From NCBI RefSeq assembly GCF_022808815.1, contig NZ_JAKZLC010000001.1, forward strand, positions 620,001 through 684,000: a stretch of DNA of 64,000 bases, read 5' to 3'. The notes beneath the pieces are model-generated. The model was not told the DNA's origin. It did not search any database and worked only from the letters and a program-made list of their open reading frames with translations. Position numbers and translations under genes: made by a program. Source of the DNA: Geothrix paludis. Its GTDB lineage: Bacteria; Acidobacteriota; Holophagae; Holophagales; Holophagaceae. The number at the start of each line of letters is the position of its first letter. Positions within the stretch are counted from its first letter, which is position 1. Positions 53,007 to 64,000 of this stretch are shown piece by piece.

Positions 53007-56000
53007 ATGGTGAACCAAGTCATGAATAGCCGTTTCCTGCTCCGGTTTTTTACTCGTTTGGCCACATTGGGCCTGGTCGTAGGACTGGCGGCCTGTGGTG
53101 GTGGCGGCGGAGGAGGCGGATCCAGCTCGACCCCGCCGTCGAACCCGACCACCTACACCGTGACCGCCGTGGCGAGCGCCGGCACCACCATCACCCCAGC
53201 CACCATCACCGTTCAGTCTGGCCAGACGGCCAGCTTCACCGTGGGCCTGCTCTCGGGCTATTCGAACCTCGTCGTCACGGGCGGCGGCGGCACCCTCAGC
53301 GGCTCCACCTACACCACTGGCCCCATCACCTCGAATACGACGGTGACGGCCTCTGCCACACCCACTCCCGCCACCTACACCGTCACCGCCGTGGCGGGAG
53401 CCGGCACCACCATCTCCCCAGCCACCATCACCGTCCAGTCCGGCCAGACGGCCAGCTTCACCGTGGGCCTGCTTTCGGGCTATTCGAACCTCGTGGTCAC
53501 GGGCGGCGGCGGCACCCTCAGCGGCTCCACCTACACCACCGGCCCCATCACTGCGAATACGACGGTGACGGCCTCCGCCACGCCCATTCCCGCCACCTAC
53601 ACCGTCACCGCCGTGGCGGGGACCGGCACGACCATCACCCCAGCCACGATCACGGTTCAGTCCGGCCAGTCAGCCAGCTTCACCGTCGGCCTGCTCTCGG
53701 GCTATTCGAACCTCGTCGTCACGGGCGGCGGCACACTTAGTGTCACCCCCAACGGTTACACCTACACCACCGGCCCCATCACCGCGAACACAACGGTGAC
53801 GGCCTCCGCCACGCCCATTCCCGCCACCTACACCATTACCGCCGTGGCGGGAGCCGGCACCACCATCTCCCCAGCCACGATCACGGTTCAGTCCGGCCAG
53901 ACAGCCAGCTTCACCGTGGGCCTGCTCTCAGGTTATTCGAACCTCGTGGTCACGGGCGGGGGCGGCACGCTAAACGGTTCCACCTACACGACCGGCCCCA
54001 TCACCGCAAACACGACGGTGACGGCCTCCGCCACGCCCATTCCCGCCACCTGCACCGTCACCGCCGCGGCGGGCACGGGCACCACCATCTCCCCAGCCAC
54101 GATCACGGTTCAGTCCGGCCAGACAGCCAGCTTCACCGTGGGCCTGCTTTCGGGCTATTCGAACCTCGTGGTCACGGGCGGCGGCGGCACACTCAGCGGC
54201 TCCACCTACACCACTGGCCCCATCACCTCGAATACGACGGTGACGGCCTCTGCCACACCCACTCCCGCCACCTACACCGTCACCGCCGTGGCGGGAGCCG
54301 GCACCACTATCTCCCCAGCCACCATCACCGTCCAGTCCGGGCAGACGGCCAGCTTCACGGTGGGCCTGCTCTCGGGCTATTCGAACCTCGTGGTCACGGG
54401 CGGCGGCGGCACCCTCAGCGGTTCCACCTACACCACCGGACCCATCACCGCGAACACAACGGTGACCGCCTCGGCCACACCCAATCCCGCCACCTACACG
54501 GTGACCGCCGTGGCGGGGGTCGGCACCACCCTCAGCCCAGCCACGATCACCGTCCAGTCCGGCCAGACGGCCAGCTTCACCGTGGGCCTGCTCTCGGGCT
54601 ATTCGAACCTCGTGGTCACGGGCGGCGGCGGCACGCTCAACGGCTCCACCTACACTACTGGTCCCATCACCTCGAATACGACCGTGACGACCTCGGCCAC
54701 GCCCAATCCCGCCACCTACACGGTGACGGCAGTGGCCTGGCCGGGCACGACCATCACGCCCACTTCGATCACGGTGGAGTCCGGTCAGACGGCCTCCTTC
54801 ACCGTTGGCATGCTGACCGGATACACGAGCCTGACGGTCTCGGGCGGGGGCGGGACGCTGAACGGCACGACTTATACAACTGGACCCGTCACGTCCGATG
54901 TCACGATCTACGCCTCTGCGATCCCCCCGATGGGGCATATGGCCACTTTCACTAGTGGTCCAGGGACCTCTTTCGCTTCGACGAGCCTATGGGTGAATGG
55001 AGGCCAGACGGTTACTGTGGCGTTGACCACCCTGGAGGGCTATGACCCGCTCACAACTCGGGTCATAGCCTCAGACGGCGTCACACCAGTGACCTACACC
55101 GATGGACTCTGCACGGTCGGACCATTGGGGAGCGACGTCACATTTACATCCAGTTCTGTGGCAAAGCCGCCCCAGGAAATACCGGTGGTCACCGGCAGGA
55201 TCGCCTTCATCGTCGACCCCACCGTCCAGGCTGATATGCAGCCTCTCCTCCAACAATTCATGGATGCTGTTGCCCTGGACACCGGTTGCACAAGCGTACT
55301 TTTCACGACGTTTACCGACCCGCTTTCGATCCGAACTTTCTTGAAGGCCCAGGGAAGCGACCTCAAGTTCGCCTTCTTGATTGGCCAAGTCCCGGTCGTG
55401 CGCCGAGCCACCGACGATGAAGCGGCGCAGGGGGCCTACGATGTGTCTGACCATTACTACCGCGCCCTAAACTACGACTTCCAAACCCCCATTCCTGGCG
55501 GAGATGGGAGATACATCATCCCCGGCGTCATCGGGGATTACTGGTTCCTCACTCAATCCATCAACTTCGCGCCAACCCTGGCGGTATCGCGAATTATGGG
55601 ACTCTCGGAAGCAACCCAACTCGCGGACATTCGGAAATACCTGGAGAAGAACCTCCGATTGCGCAACATGGACTTCGCCTATACGCCCGGTATCACCTCT
55701 GTGGAGGCATTCCTGGCCAACGGCGTTCCATACCCCTACAACCTGCCTGAAATCGCTGCTGCCACCGCTGGCCATCCCCTTGTGGAACCTGGAGTCTTCA
55801 CGTTCATCCACGGGCAGCCCGCAGTGAACGCCAAGCAGGCCCTGATTGATGCCCTCCGTAGCATCGAGTATGTGAAGGTTCTGGCGCACACCCTTCAAAC
55901 ATCGATGAGGTTCGAAGGGGCAGATCCCACCGATGTCATCAATGTGGCCGATACCGCCGAGTTCATCGACGACTCCATTCATTCCCGGTTTGTGTCCTAC

Positions 56001-56696
56001 CACGACTGCTATGCAGGAGATTTTTCCTACTGGGGCAACACCGGTATGCGAACCGCTTTGAGTGGTGACACCTTGTTGGTACGCGCGGCACCCTACATCG
56101 CTGCCACCGCCATCTACAGGGACATTCTCGAGGCGAATAGCTTCGAATTCGCAATGGGGGTGGGGAGGAGGTACGCTTTCTTATTCCCGTATACAAATGT
56201 ACTTGAATGGGAGCATTTCTGCGGCGATCCCACCATCGCCATGCGCCACCCCGACCTATCGGCACCCCAACCCCGCATGGTCATCGCCGGTAGGGCATAT
56301 GGGCAGGAATTTACCCTTCCCTTGGTCCTGGACAAGAACAGCGGTATGGGTCTCTACGGAGAGGTAGTGGTGGCCAATACCGGGAATGCGGACCTCATCC
56401 TCCACGGCAACCTTCTCCCTGACTTCTCCACCACGTCCCTTCTCGACCGGGGGAACGGCGGACGATGGAACTCCGCAATGGGCGGCGTGGACATGATGCA
56501 TCAGGTGGATCAATACGGTATGGCCGCCACGATCAGGATCGCCCCTGGCGAGGCCAAGACCCTCCGGATTGATCTACATTCCATGACCTACGGGTTCAAC
56601 CCGCTCTCGGGTCCCCACGAGGGCTGGTTCCATTTCACGTGCAACGATCCCAGAATCGGCGCGTTCCGCGTTGCAGCCTCTGGAACGCTCCCCTAG
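53007..56696 (+). CDS. repeat-rich lipoprotein with C-terminal gingipain-like cysteine-peptidase domain
   Basis: 1229 residues. The signal peptide ends in a lipobox (VGLAAC, Cys30) and a glycine run, so it is probably lipid-anchored at the cell surface. Residues 49-~643 are eight tandem repeats of 74 residues (one of 77), nearly identical, resembling divergent InlB B-repeat beta domains; a ninth is degenerate. The C-terminal ~500 residues resemble clan CD peptidases of family C25: SDHYYRAL, a D.WFL block with LAVSRIMGLSEATQLADIRK, catalytic-type His961 (LAHTLQTS) and Cys1001 (YHDCYAGDF), and the late FCGDPTIAM. A final HYDIN-like Ig domain ends it (VVANTGNADL). Codons in the second half are less GC-rich than the neighbours, suggesting acquisition. 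The peptidase call is by eye only. Confidence 0.7.
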   Translation: MVNQVMNSRFLLRFFTRLATLGLVVGLAACGGGGGGGGSSSTPPSNPTTYTVTAVASAGTTITPATITVQSGQTASFTVGLLSGYSNLVVTGGGGTLSGSTYTTGPITSNTTVTASATPTPATYTVTAVAGAGTTISPATITVQSGQTASFTVGLLSGYSNLVVTGGGGTLSGSTYTTGPITANTTVTASATPIPATYTVTAVAGTGTTITPATITVQSGQSASFTVGLLSGYSNLVVTGGGTLSVTPNGYTYTTGPITANTTVTASATPIPATYTITAVAGAGTTISPATITVQSGQTASFTVGLLSGYSNLVVTGGGGTLNGSTYTTGPITANTTVTASATPIPATCTVTAAAGTGTTISPATITVQSGQTASFTVGLLSGYSNLVVTGGGGTLSGSTYTTGPITSNTTVTASATPTPATYTVTAVAGAGTTISPATITVQSGQTASFTVGLLSGYSNLVVTGGGGTLSGSTYTTGPITANTTVTASATPNPATYTVTAVAGVGTTLSPATITVQSGQTASFTVGLLSGYSNLVVTGGGGTLNGSTYTTGPITSNTTVTTSATPNPATYTVTAVAWPGTTITPTSITVESGQTASFTVGMLTGYTSLTVSGGGGTLNGTTYTTGPVTSDVTIYASAIPPMGHMATFTSGPGTSFASTSLWVNGGQTVTVALTTLEGYDPLTTRVIASDGVTPVTYTDGLCTVGPLGSDVTFTSSSVAKPPQEIPVVTGRIAFIVDPTVQADMQPLLQQFMDAVALDTGCTSVLFTTFTDPLSIRTFLKAQGSDLKFAFLIGQVPVVRRATDDEAAQGAYDVSDHYYRALNYDFQTPIPGGDGRYIIPGVIGDYWFLTQSINFAPTLAVSRIMGLSEATQLADIRKYLEKNLRLRNMDFAYTPGITSVEAFLANGVPYPYNLPEIAAATAGHPLVEPGVFTFIHGQPAVNAKQALIDALRSIEYVKVLAHTLQTSMRFEGADPTDVINVADTAEFIDDSIHSRFVSYHDCYAGDFSYWGNTGMRTALSGDTLLVRAAPYIAATAIYRDILEANSFEFAMGVGRRYAFLFPYTNVLEWEHFCGDPTIAMRHPDLSAPQPRMVIAGRAYGQEFTLPLVLDKNSGMGLYGEVVVANTGNADLILHGNLLPDFSTTSLLDRGNGGRWNSAMGGVDMMHQVDQYGMAATIRIAPGEAKTLRIDLHSMTYGFNPLSGPHEGWFHFTCNDPRIGAFRVAASGTLP
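53151..54935 (+). repeat. eight tandem 222-nt coding repeats
   Basis: Units start at 53151, 53373, 53595, 53826, 54048, 54270, 54492 and 54714. All are 222 nt except the third, which is 231 nt because of a 3-codon insertion and altered loop (VTPNGY). Units 1-7 are almost identical at nucleotide level; unit 8 has diverged. Each encodes one 74-residue domain (TYTVTAVAG...TASATP-PA). Confidence 0.95.
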
Positions 56697-62193: not shown

Positions 62194-62640
62194 TCAGGCG
62201 ACCGGATCGACCCGTTTGCGGATGGCGACGGCTACGTCCGCGCCTCGGTGGAGGAAGACGATCTGCACCTGGACCGGACCACCCGGAAAATGAAAGGTGA
62301 ACTGGAACGTCCTGGAAGCATCATCCCGCTCGCAGAACTCGCGGAAGACACCCTGGAACTCCTGGACCGAGGTGCAGGGAGCGATCTCGGTGAAGAAATG
62401 GCGACCGATCACAGCGCTGGGCTCACGGCCCGCGAGCGCGCCTTCCGCCGGGTTATAGGCGAGGATGGTCCCATCCCTGGCCAGGACGATCACGCCGAAC
62501 GGCAAGCCGTCCAACGCCTCCTCGGACAGATCCGGAATGCGAAGCAGTTCCCGGTAGCAGGAGCGGCAGATGCCATGGGAATGGTCGACCCCGCTCTGAC
62601 CGATCAAGGCTCCGCACCACGCGCACAGCACATCACCCAT
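62194..62640 (-). CDS. photoactive-yellow-protein-like PAS protein with zinc-finger-like N-terminus
   Basis: 148 residues. Residues 43-~145 align without gaps, at an offset of 20, with photoactive yellow protein (PYP) of Halorhodospira halophila as I remember it. Cys89 matches the p-coumarate-binding Cys69 in IAPCT; Tyr62, Glu66 and Arg72 match Tyr42, Glu46 and Arg52. Thr50 is Ala70, and Tyr94/Tyr98 are Phe. By hand about 33 of 59 residues agree over 44-102. The N-terminus has Cys6, Cys9, Cys25 and Cys28 (LCAWCG and SHGICRSCY), a probable zinc finger that PYP itself lacks. It may be a blue-light or other ligand sensor. No gene for p-coumarate synthesis or activation lies nearby. Confidence 0.78.
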   Translation of the reverse strand: MGDVLCAWCGALIGQSGVDHSHGICRSCYRELLRIPDLSEEALDGLPFGVIVLARDGTILAYNPAEGALAGREPSAVIGRHFFTEIAPCTSVQEFQGVFREFCERDDASRTFQFTFHFPGGPVQVQIVFLHRGADVAVAIRKRVDPVA

Positions 62641-62728: not shown

Positions 62729-63112
62729 TCACCGGGCCTTATCCACCATCTGGATCAAGGCCGTCTCCACTTCACGGGCGATGGGAAGCAGCGCGGGATC
62801 CTTCGACAGGCCCTCGAGCAGATCCGAGGGTGGAATGAGGCCGATCCGGGTTCGCCCCTGGTCCGTGTAGACGGAGATGCGGCAGGGCAGCGCCATGTTC
62901 AGGCGCAGGTCGAGGCCAAGGACCTTGGACGCCTGGCCCGGGTTGCACACCTCGAAGACCCGGCAGGCCTCCGTGAATGGAAAGCCCTTGCTGCGTAGCG
63001 TGTTCCCCAGGTCATGGATGTGGAGCACACCGAAGCCGCCCGCCTGCACCGCAGCCTCCAGGTCGGCCGAGGCCTCCTCGAAGGGTTTGTCGGATTCGAC
63101 GATGTAGTACAT
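62729..63112 (-). CDS. DUF302 family protein
   Basis: 127 residues, DUF302. Sequence blocks are MYYIVESDKPFEEASADLEAAVQ, GFGVLHIHDLGNTLRSKG and EACRVFEVCNPGQASKVL, the conserved 'FEVCNP..A..vL' pattern, with ALPCRISVYTDQG. Family members are small alpha+beta proteins of uncertain function, sometimes linked to sulfur or redox compartments. It lies between maeB and the PYP-like gene, same strand, with 88 nt to the next start. Confidence 0.88.
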   Translation of the reverse strand: MYYIVESDKPFEEASADLEAAVQAGGFGVLHIHDLGNTLRSKGFPFTEACRVFEVCNPGQASKVLGLDLRLNMALPCRISVYTDQGRTRIGLIPPSDLLEGLSKDPALLPIAREVETALIQMVDKAR

Positions 63113-63181: not shown

Positions 63182-63214
63182 CACTGAAAGCTGACAGCTG
63201 ACCGCTGACAGCTA
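63182..63214. repeat. heptanucleotide repeat array (copy C), joined to the maeB stop codon
   Basis: Plus-strand units are CACTGAA, AGCTGAC, AGCTGAC, CGCTGAC, AGCT, in 7-nt phase. On the coding strand the maeB stop runs straight into the array (GAAGTAGCTGTCAGC), in the same register as copy B after gcvT (GAAGTAGCTCTCAGC). Confidence 0.8.
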
Positions 63215-64000
63215 CTTCTGCTGCGCCTCCACGACGGTGAGCGCCGTGAGGTGGATGATGTCGTTCATATCGCTGTGCCGCTGGAGCACGTGGACCGGGG
63301 CGGCCATGCCGCAGGTGATGGGGCCGATGACCTCGGCGCCCGCCAGCCGCTGAACCAGCTTGTAGCCGATGTTGCCGCTGGTGAGGTCGGGGAAGATCAG
63401 CACGTTCGGGCCGCCCGGGAGGTCCACCCAGGGGTAGCTCTCGGCCAGGATGCCCTCGCCGAGGGCCGTGTCCGCCTGCATCTCGCCGTCGCACTTGAGG
63501 TCGGGGCGCTGGAACTTCACGATCTCCACCGCCTTCTGGACCTTGCGGACCAGGGGGTGGTCCACGCTGCCGAAGTCGGAGAAGGACAGCATGGCCACCT
63601 TGGGCTCCATGTTGAACCGGTCCTTGGCCAGGTCGGCGGTGAGCAGGGCGATCTCCGCCAGCTCCTCGCTGCTGGGCTCGATGTTCATGGTGGTGTCGGA
63701 GAAGAACAGCACGCGGTTCTTGAGCACCATGGTGTAGACGCCGCACACGCGCTTGACGCCCTTGCGGGTGCCGATTACCTCCAGGCAGGGCCGGATGGTG
63801 TCGGGATAGTACATCGTCAGGCCCGCGATGAGGCCATCCGCCTTGCCCAGGCGACACATCAGGGCGCCGAAGTAGATCGGCTCCATCACCTTGCGGCTCG
63901 CCTCGTCGCGGGTGACGCCGCGCCGCTTCCGCAGCTCCAGGTAGGCGTCCTCGGCCTCTTTACGCCAGGCCACGGTGCCCGGATCCTGGATCTCGATGCC
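63212..64000 (-). CDS. maeB: malic enzyme MaeB type, C-terminal phosphotransacetylase-like domain (5' end outside window)
   Basis: At least 262 residues; the frame is open to the right edge, so the N-terminal malic enzyme domains lie beyond. The visible part matches the PTA-like C-terminal domain of NADP-dependent malic enzyme: DGEMQADTALGE, NVLIFPDLTSGNIGYKLVQRLAGAEVIGP, and the ending PVHVLQRHSDMNDIIHLTALTVVEAQ. That ending distinguishes MaeB from real phosphate acetyltransferase, whose last block is different. It decarboxylates malate to pyruvate; the C-terminal domain is thought to be regulatory and not catalytic. It is followed by DUF302. Confidence 0.85.
   Translation of the reverse strand, partial: GIEIQDPGTVAWRKEAEDAYLELRKRRGVTRDEASRKVMEPIYFGALMCRLGKADGLIAGLTMYYPDTIRPCLEVIGTRKGVKRVCGVYTMVLKNRVLFFSDTTMNIEPSSEELAEIALLTADLAKDRFNMEPKVAMLSFSDFGSVDHPLVRKVQKAVEIVKFQRPDLKCDGEMQADTALGEGILAESYPWVDLPGGPNVLIFPDLTSGNIGYKLVQRLAGAEVIGPITCGMAAPVHVLQRHSDMNDIIHLTALTVVEAQQK

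Follow-up and report, generated by a model that had tools for sequence, protein, structure and literature searches.

Members of the photoactive yellow protein (PYP) family are defined by a conserved Cys69 together with Tyr42 and Glu46 (Xing et al. 2022, PMC9664959). Most of them are single-domain proteins with unknown partners (PMC12826048), while fusions to phytochrome, kinase, GGDEF/EAL, V4R, REC, and MCP modules have been described (PMC12826048; PMC9664959). PYPs in Acidobacteriota account for 2.4% of 984 (PMC12826048; PMC9664959). The Geothrix protein described here resembles H. halophila PYP (PDB 2phy; TIGR02373) in its fold, in a gap-free register over residues 38–127, and in Tyr42, Glu46, Pro68, Cys69, and Phe96 (H. 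halophila numbering), at an identity of approximately 34%. It differs by an additional N-terminal ribbon with four cysteines (Cys4), by the exchange of Thr50 for Ala, of Tyr94 and Tyr98 for Phe, and of Met100 for Gly, by the loss of Trp119, and by the lack of a tyrosine ammonia-lyase (TAL) or p-coumarate:CoA ligase (pCL) gene linked to it.

Further comparable proteins are found among the Acidobacteriota. The PYP of a genome of the same class (G048; L001/L130) has key residues identical to those in Geothrix, but scores 198 bits, which is above the TIGR02373 cut-off, carries no ribbon, and is flanked by pCL-like and TAL-like genes. A PYP-kinase-like protein from a genome of the same family (G143) and a PYP-V4R-like protein (G381) join the Geothrix copies in the tree, although this grouping includes long branches. 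As read from the sequence, these two and a third PYP (G216) carry fusions in place of the ribbon: a histidine kinase-like C-terminus in G143 (L133), a V4R-like C-terminus in G381 (L055), and an EAL-like domain followed by a C-terminal PYP in G216 (L053).

The first-pass annotation had stressed the occurrence of a PYP outside the phototrophic and some other Proteobacteria in which it is classically found. This taxonomic surprise is smaller than claimed, as PYPs of Acidobacteriota and of many non-phototrophs are on record (PMC12826048, PMC9664959). We judge the zinc-ribbon/PYP fusion to be new and the PYP family itself to be known. No precedent for the fusion was found in a literature search or in the main texts of PMC12826048 and PMC9664959, whose supplements may list Geothrix entries, and zinc is not mentioned in either main text. 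Proteins of <200 amino acids were handled as single-domain in PMC12826048, so the ribbon-PYP may have been overlooked.

The ribbon-PYP gene of Geothrix

The window, that is, the whole stretch of 64,000 nucleotides analyzed, originates from a Geothrix genome (G000; Acidobacteriota), where it spans positions 620001–684000 of contig C1. An open reading frame of 148 amino acids with an ATG start was located on the minus strand exactly at 62194–62640 (stop codon counted), as the first-pass annotation had placed it. The nearest named relatives over this protein are found in G. terrae SG184 (91%) and Geothrix sp. SG200 (88%). A fused output domain is absent from the protein. The following features were assigned:

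62194..62640, minus strand: Zn-ribbon/PYP protein, 148 amino acids (open reading frame, profile, and PDB matches)
62557..62625, minus strand: CAWC-x15-CRSC Cys4 ribbon, residues 6–28, probable zinc site (invariant residues in 18 copies; sub-threshold profiles)
62212..62529, minus strand: PYP (PAS) domain, residues 38–143 (TIGR02373, PF00989, PDB PYP; AlphaFold2 model)
62374..62376, minus strand: Cys89 codon, corresponding to H. halophila Cys69, putative p-coumarate thioester site (invariant in 35/35 aligned PYPs)
62455..62457, minus strand: Tyr62 codon, corresponding to H. halophila Tyr42 (invariant in 35/35 aligned PYPs)
62443..62445, minus strand: Glu66 codon, corresponding to H. halophila Glu46 (invariant in 35/35 aligned PYPs)
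62729..63112, minus strand: DUF302 protein, upstream neighbor (PF03625, E 3e-15; linkage inconsistent at orthologous loci)
63212..64000, minus strand: maeB, 3′ part, encoding a malic enzyme that carries a phosphotransacetylase domain (conserved upstream neighbor; extends beyond the window end)

Assignment to the PYP family

The TIGR02373 (photo_yellow) profile matched residues 39–129 with an E-value of 2e-29 and 102.2 bits, a score below the curated equivalog cut-off of 143 bits. Of the PYP homologues that BLAST detects, no more than about 20% are recovered by this profile (PMC9664959). All 15 scanned copies were matched by it. General PAS models in NCBIfam were much weaker (sensory_box, E 0.008), and the match to PF00989 had an E-value of 9e-12. 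In a PDB search, H. halophila PYP was aligned without gaps (E 3e-21), followed by the Ppr-PYP of R. centenum (E 4e-18); all PYPs were found at 1e-14 or better and the next PAS domain at 2e-4. In both the profile and the PDB search, PYP is thus a closer match than other PAS domains are.

An AlphaFold2 model built from 21 relatives reached a pLDDT of 84.6 and a pTM of 0.79, with low to middling confidence in the ribbon region. Foldseek searches with this model returned PYP structures at the top (E 3e-12). With VIA-align, the best PYP gave a Z-score of 17.1 (rmsd 2.0 over 117 residues); PYPs ranged from 13 to 17 and other PAS domains reached at most 12.5, which indicates a PYP-type PAS fold of the predicted model. 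Cys89, Tyr62, and Glu66, the counterparts of the family-defining residues of PMC9664959, were invariant in all 35 aligned proteins. The best reading of these results is that the Geothrix protein is a real member of the PYP family. The earlier description as a PYP-like PAS protein with an added Cys4 head was borne out by profile, fold, tree, and conservation.

The N-terminal Cys4 ribbon

Eighteen ribbon-PYP copies were detected in 17 Geothrix genomes, and one further Geothrix genome (G033) encodes a PYP without the ribbon. In all 18 copies, Cys6, Trp8, Cys9, Ile24, Cys25, and Cys28 are invariant (CxWC...C..C) and form the two CxxC knuckles typical of a zinc ribbon (C6-x2-C9 and C25-x2-C28). The four cysteines are kept across copies sharing as little as 42% identity. 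Matches to Pfam zinc-ribbon models were all below the cut-off (DZR_2, E 0.014 to 2.5e-4). The Cys4 head probably binds zinc. In H. halophila PYP, the place of the ribbon is taken by the N-terminal cap, a segment that moves strongly upon activation. The relay of the PYP signal is an open question in the field, and here a ribbon is fused exactly at the cap and kept genus-wide; the ribbon-PYP offers a small, testable candidate for an output module.

Among 60 relatives, the motif occurred once per genome and was confined to the ribbon-PYP gene; no other Geothrix gene in this set contained it. The search of 297 Acidobacteriota returned Geothrix, a single copy with the ribbon-PYP architecture in a second genus (G130), and one free-standing small open reading frame (G111). 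Neither a ribbon-PYP (by profile) nor the motif was detected in a sparse sample of 398 Pseudomonadota. PYPs on plasmids were represented by four records, the best match of which, examined whole, was devoid of the ribbon.

The short reading frame of G111 (L156, contig C193) shares the CAWCG...GIC..C motif with the Geothrix protein, but no PYP domain follows downstream; the ribbon hence also occurs as a separate module. In G130 (L129, G130:C16:36000–55900), two PYPs are encoded on opposite strands at a distance of approximately 10 kb, and only one of them carries the ribbon.

Conservation of the chromophore pocket

Cys89, Pro88, Tyr62, Glu66, and Phe116 correspond to H. halophila Cys69, Pro68, Tyr42, Glu46, and Phe96, as the first-pass annotation had stated, and are aligned without gaps within residues 38–127. 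Beyond this stretch the register does not hold throughout, since two residues are missing at the last strand and Trp119 is absent. To call the pocket full was slightly too strong: the key residues are kept, but Thr50 is replaced by Ala70 and Val66 by Ile86. Arg72 (Arg52), also listed, is present in the window protein, but varies between R, L, and M in orthologues and is not a conserved feature of the pocket.

Ile31, Tyr42, Glu46, Phe62, Ala67, Pro68, Cys69, and Phe96 (H. halophila numbers) are invariant in the 18 Geothrix copies, whereas pocket position 66 is Ile or Val. Invariant positions thus make up 8/9 of the pocket versus 21/101 of the remaining PAS domain (Fisher p 8e-5, an indicative value because the sequences share kinship). 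Tyr42, Glu46, Pro68, and Cys69 are identical in 35/35 aligned PYPs, the 18 Geothrix copies among them. Pairwise dN/dS values, estimated roughly for the syntenic group and G011, were mostly 0.1–0.3. These data show the PYP pocket to be intact and under selection in Geothrix.

Outside the nine pocket residues, Tyr94 and Tyr98 of the model PYP are replaced by Phe and Met100 by Gly120 in the window protein. Overall, the differences from the model PYP comprise Ala at position 50, Phe at 94 and 98, small or polar residues at 100, and the lack of Trp119. Ala50 is the consensus of the PYP family and tends to accompany red-shifted bands (PMC12826048). Since Met100 has been proposed as the catalyst of re-isomerization (PMC9664959), a slow dark recovery is predicted for the Geothrix PYP; in view of Ala70, a shifted band would also be expected. 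A literature search returned no reports on PYP in Geothrix or on an M100A variant.

Genomic neighborhood and distribution

The gene order maeB–PYP–SirB1/TPR is kept in 12 genomes. Both maeB and DUF302 adjoin the gene in the window, in accordance with the initial description; DUF302 is not conserved there, being absent from five of the maeB-linked loci and located on the opposite side in two. In G015, G023, G024, and G356, a total of five copies lie away from maeB, which implies that the gene has moved or been duplicated. The neighbors of the non-syntenic copies include genes for an aldo-keto reductase, a pyrimidine-dimer glycosylase, a photolyase, a hemerythrin, and a PAS kinase, none of which recurs. 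A conserved signaling neighbor was not found at the ribbon-PYP loci compared. An operon-based function was considered and rejected because of the inconsistent DUF302 and the location of other PYP loci elsewhere; hence, no partner was derived from the neighborhood.

A clear PYP match was obtained in 16/37 Geothrix genomes, some of which are incomplete, and the distribution is therefore patchy. In the PAS tree, the Geothrix copies group with other acidobacterial PYPs, and a 98/89 split separates them from the H. halophila group. The order within this grouping is unresolved, with several long branches, and long-branched sequences without a ribbon are mixed with the Zn copies, so that the Zn form may have a single origin or more than one.

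One Geothrix genome (G356) harbors two ribbon-PYPs at unrelated places (L128 and L127); near one of them, a hemerythrin gene lies at a distance of 1.4 kb and a gene for a multi-PAS hybrid kinase at 2 kb. Photolyase-type genes were observed in G000 (L155, G000:C1:271663–272238) and in G011 (L119), in the latter approximately 4 kb from the PYP gene; exposure of these bacteria to light is plausible. Geothrix inhabits soils and sediments.

Chromophore supply

Serine–histidine is the residue pair of histidine lyases, at the place where tyrosine lyases have His–Leu. Nearly all Geothrix genomes contain one aromatic amino acid lyase gene; G010 and G029 gave two matches each, which are partial fragments. 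The histidine lyase motif was present at every Geothrix lyase locus examined. The TAL gene that the first-pass annotation had suggested looking for was not recognizable in Geothrix, the single PF00221 gene of G000 encoding the histidine lyase motif RSHAAG. The PYP-type pCL, the other gene suggested, was likewise not found: the ligase of G048 had no orthologue in the 31 Geothrix genomes searched, whereas the same query detected an orthologue (57%) adjoining pyp in G050. Ten generic AMP-binding enzymes are encoded in G000.

G048, of the same class, served as positive control. Its pyp, an AMP-binding ligase gene, and a gene for a second lyase with HLAAG form one gene run, so that fully equipped PYPs with the classical pyp–pCL–TAL arrangement exist close by. 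Directly upstream of this pyp (L130, G048:C369:1–12000), motB-like and motA-like genes were noticed, a hint of phototaxis.

TAL is found in only 5% and pCL in 32% of predicted pyp operons (PMC12826048), and the missing genes therefore do not exclude a chromophore. As a dedicated TAL or PYP-type ligase was not found, the chromophore would have to come from the surroundings or be provided by a promiscuous lyase or ligase. Geothrix represents a clean case of a selected PYP pocket without the usual chromophore gene.

Proposed function and alternative explanations

The protein is probably a blue-light sensor of the PYP family in a soil bacterium that does not use light as its energy source. We lean towards a PYP-family PAS domain with an N-terminal Cys4 zinc ribbon, in which p-coumarate drives a photocycle and the ribbon serves as output. 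Most likely, p-coumarate would be loaded from outside or by promiscuous enzymes, with the ribbon as a docking or output module. For the ribbon-PYP, we infer the identity of the chromophore, the photocycle, the zinc, and a partner as follows. p-Coumarate or a close hydroxycinnamate would be linked to Cys89 via a thioester, and its phenolate would be held by Tyr62 and Glu66. Blue light would isomerize the chromophore, Glu66 would lose its proton, and the PAS domain would change its shape, a change that the N-terminal ribbon may relay to a partner protein. A more far-reaching version, in which dark-living iron-reducing Acidobacteriota use PYP photoreceptors with a zinc-ribbon output replacing the cap and scavenge coumarate from plant debris, appears unlikely in its entirety; if true, the protein would report light only where plant-derived coumarate is around.

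The first-pass annotation had also mentioned a redox sensor reusing the pocket. In an iron-reducing anaerobe, Cys89 and the Cys4 zinc site might respond to oxidants or metals, and a small protein with two thiol sites and no detected chromophore genes would suit such a role. A redox neofunctionalization has been proposed for some PYPs without Cys69 (PMC9664959); in those cases, however, Cys69 is substituted, whereas Geothrix strictly keeps Cys69, Tyr42, and Glu46, and a second pocket cysteine is not conserved. A redox, thiol, or metal sensor is accordingly rated as rather improbable, and the strict co-conservation of Tyr42, Glu46, and Cys69 speaks for p-coumarate as the chromophore rather than for a role in redox sensing alone. 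Slightly less probable again is a chemical sensor of hydroxycinnamates or phenolics, for which environmental p-coumarate would signal plant matter instead of light. The conserved pocket, the soil and sediment habitat, and the chromophore biosynthesis genes that were not found are compatible with it, but simple ligand sensing would have no use for the tuning of phenolate and photocycle by Glu46 and Tyr42, and covalent attachment to Cys69 is poorly suited to reversible sensing. That the gene is a decaying or neutral, non-functional remnant of a horizontally acquired PYP might be suggested by its patchy occurrence (16/37 genomes, some incomplete) and the missing chromophore genes; this is very improbable and largely refuted by the signs of selection, namely dN/dS values of 0.1–0.3 in most pairs, the invariant pocket and Cys4 residues, and the conserved position adjoining maeB in 12 genomes.

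Elsewhere in the window (53007–56696, plus strand), a secreted-looking protein of 1229 amino acids is encoded, which contains about eight near-identical repeats of approximately 66 residues (YTVTAVAG..GTTISPATITVQSGQTASFTVG...).
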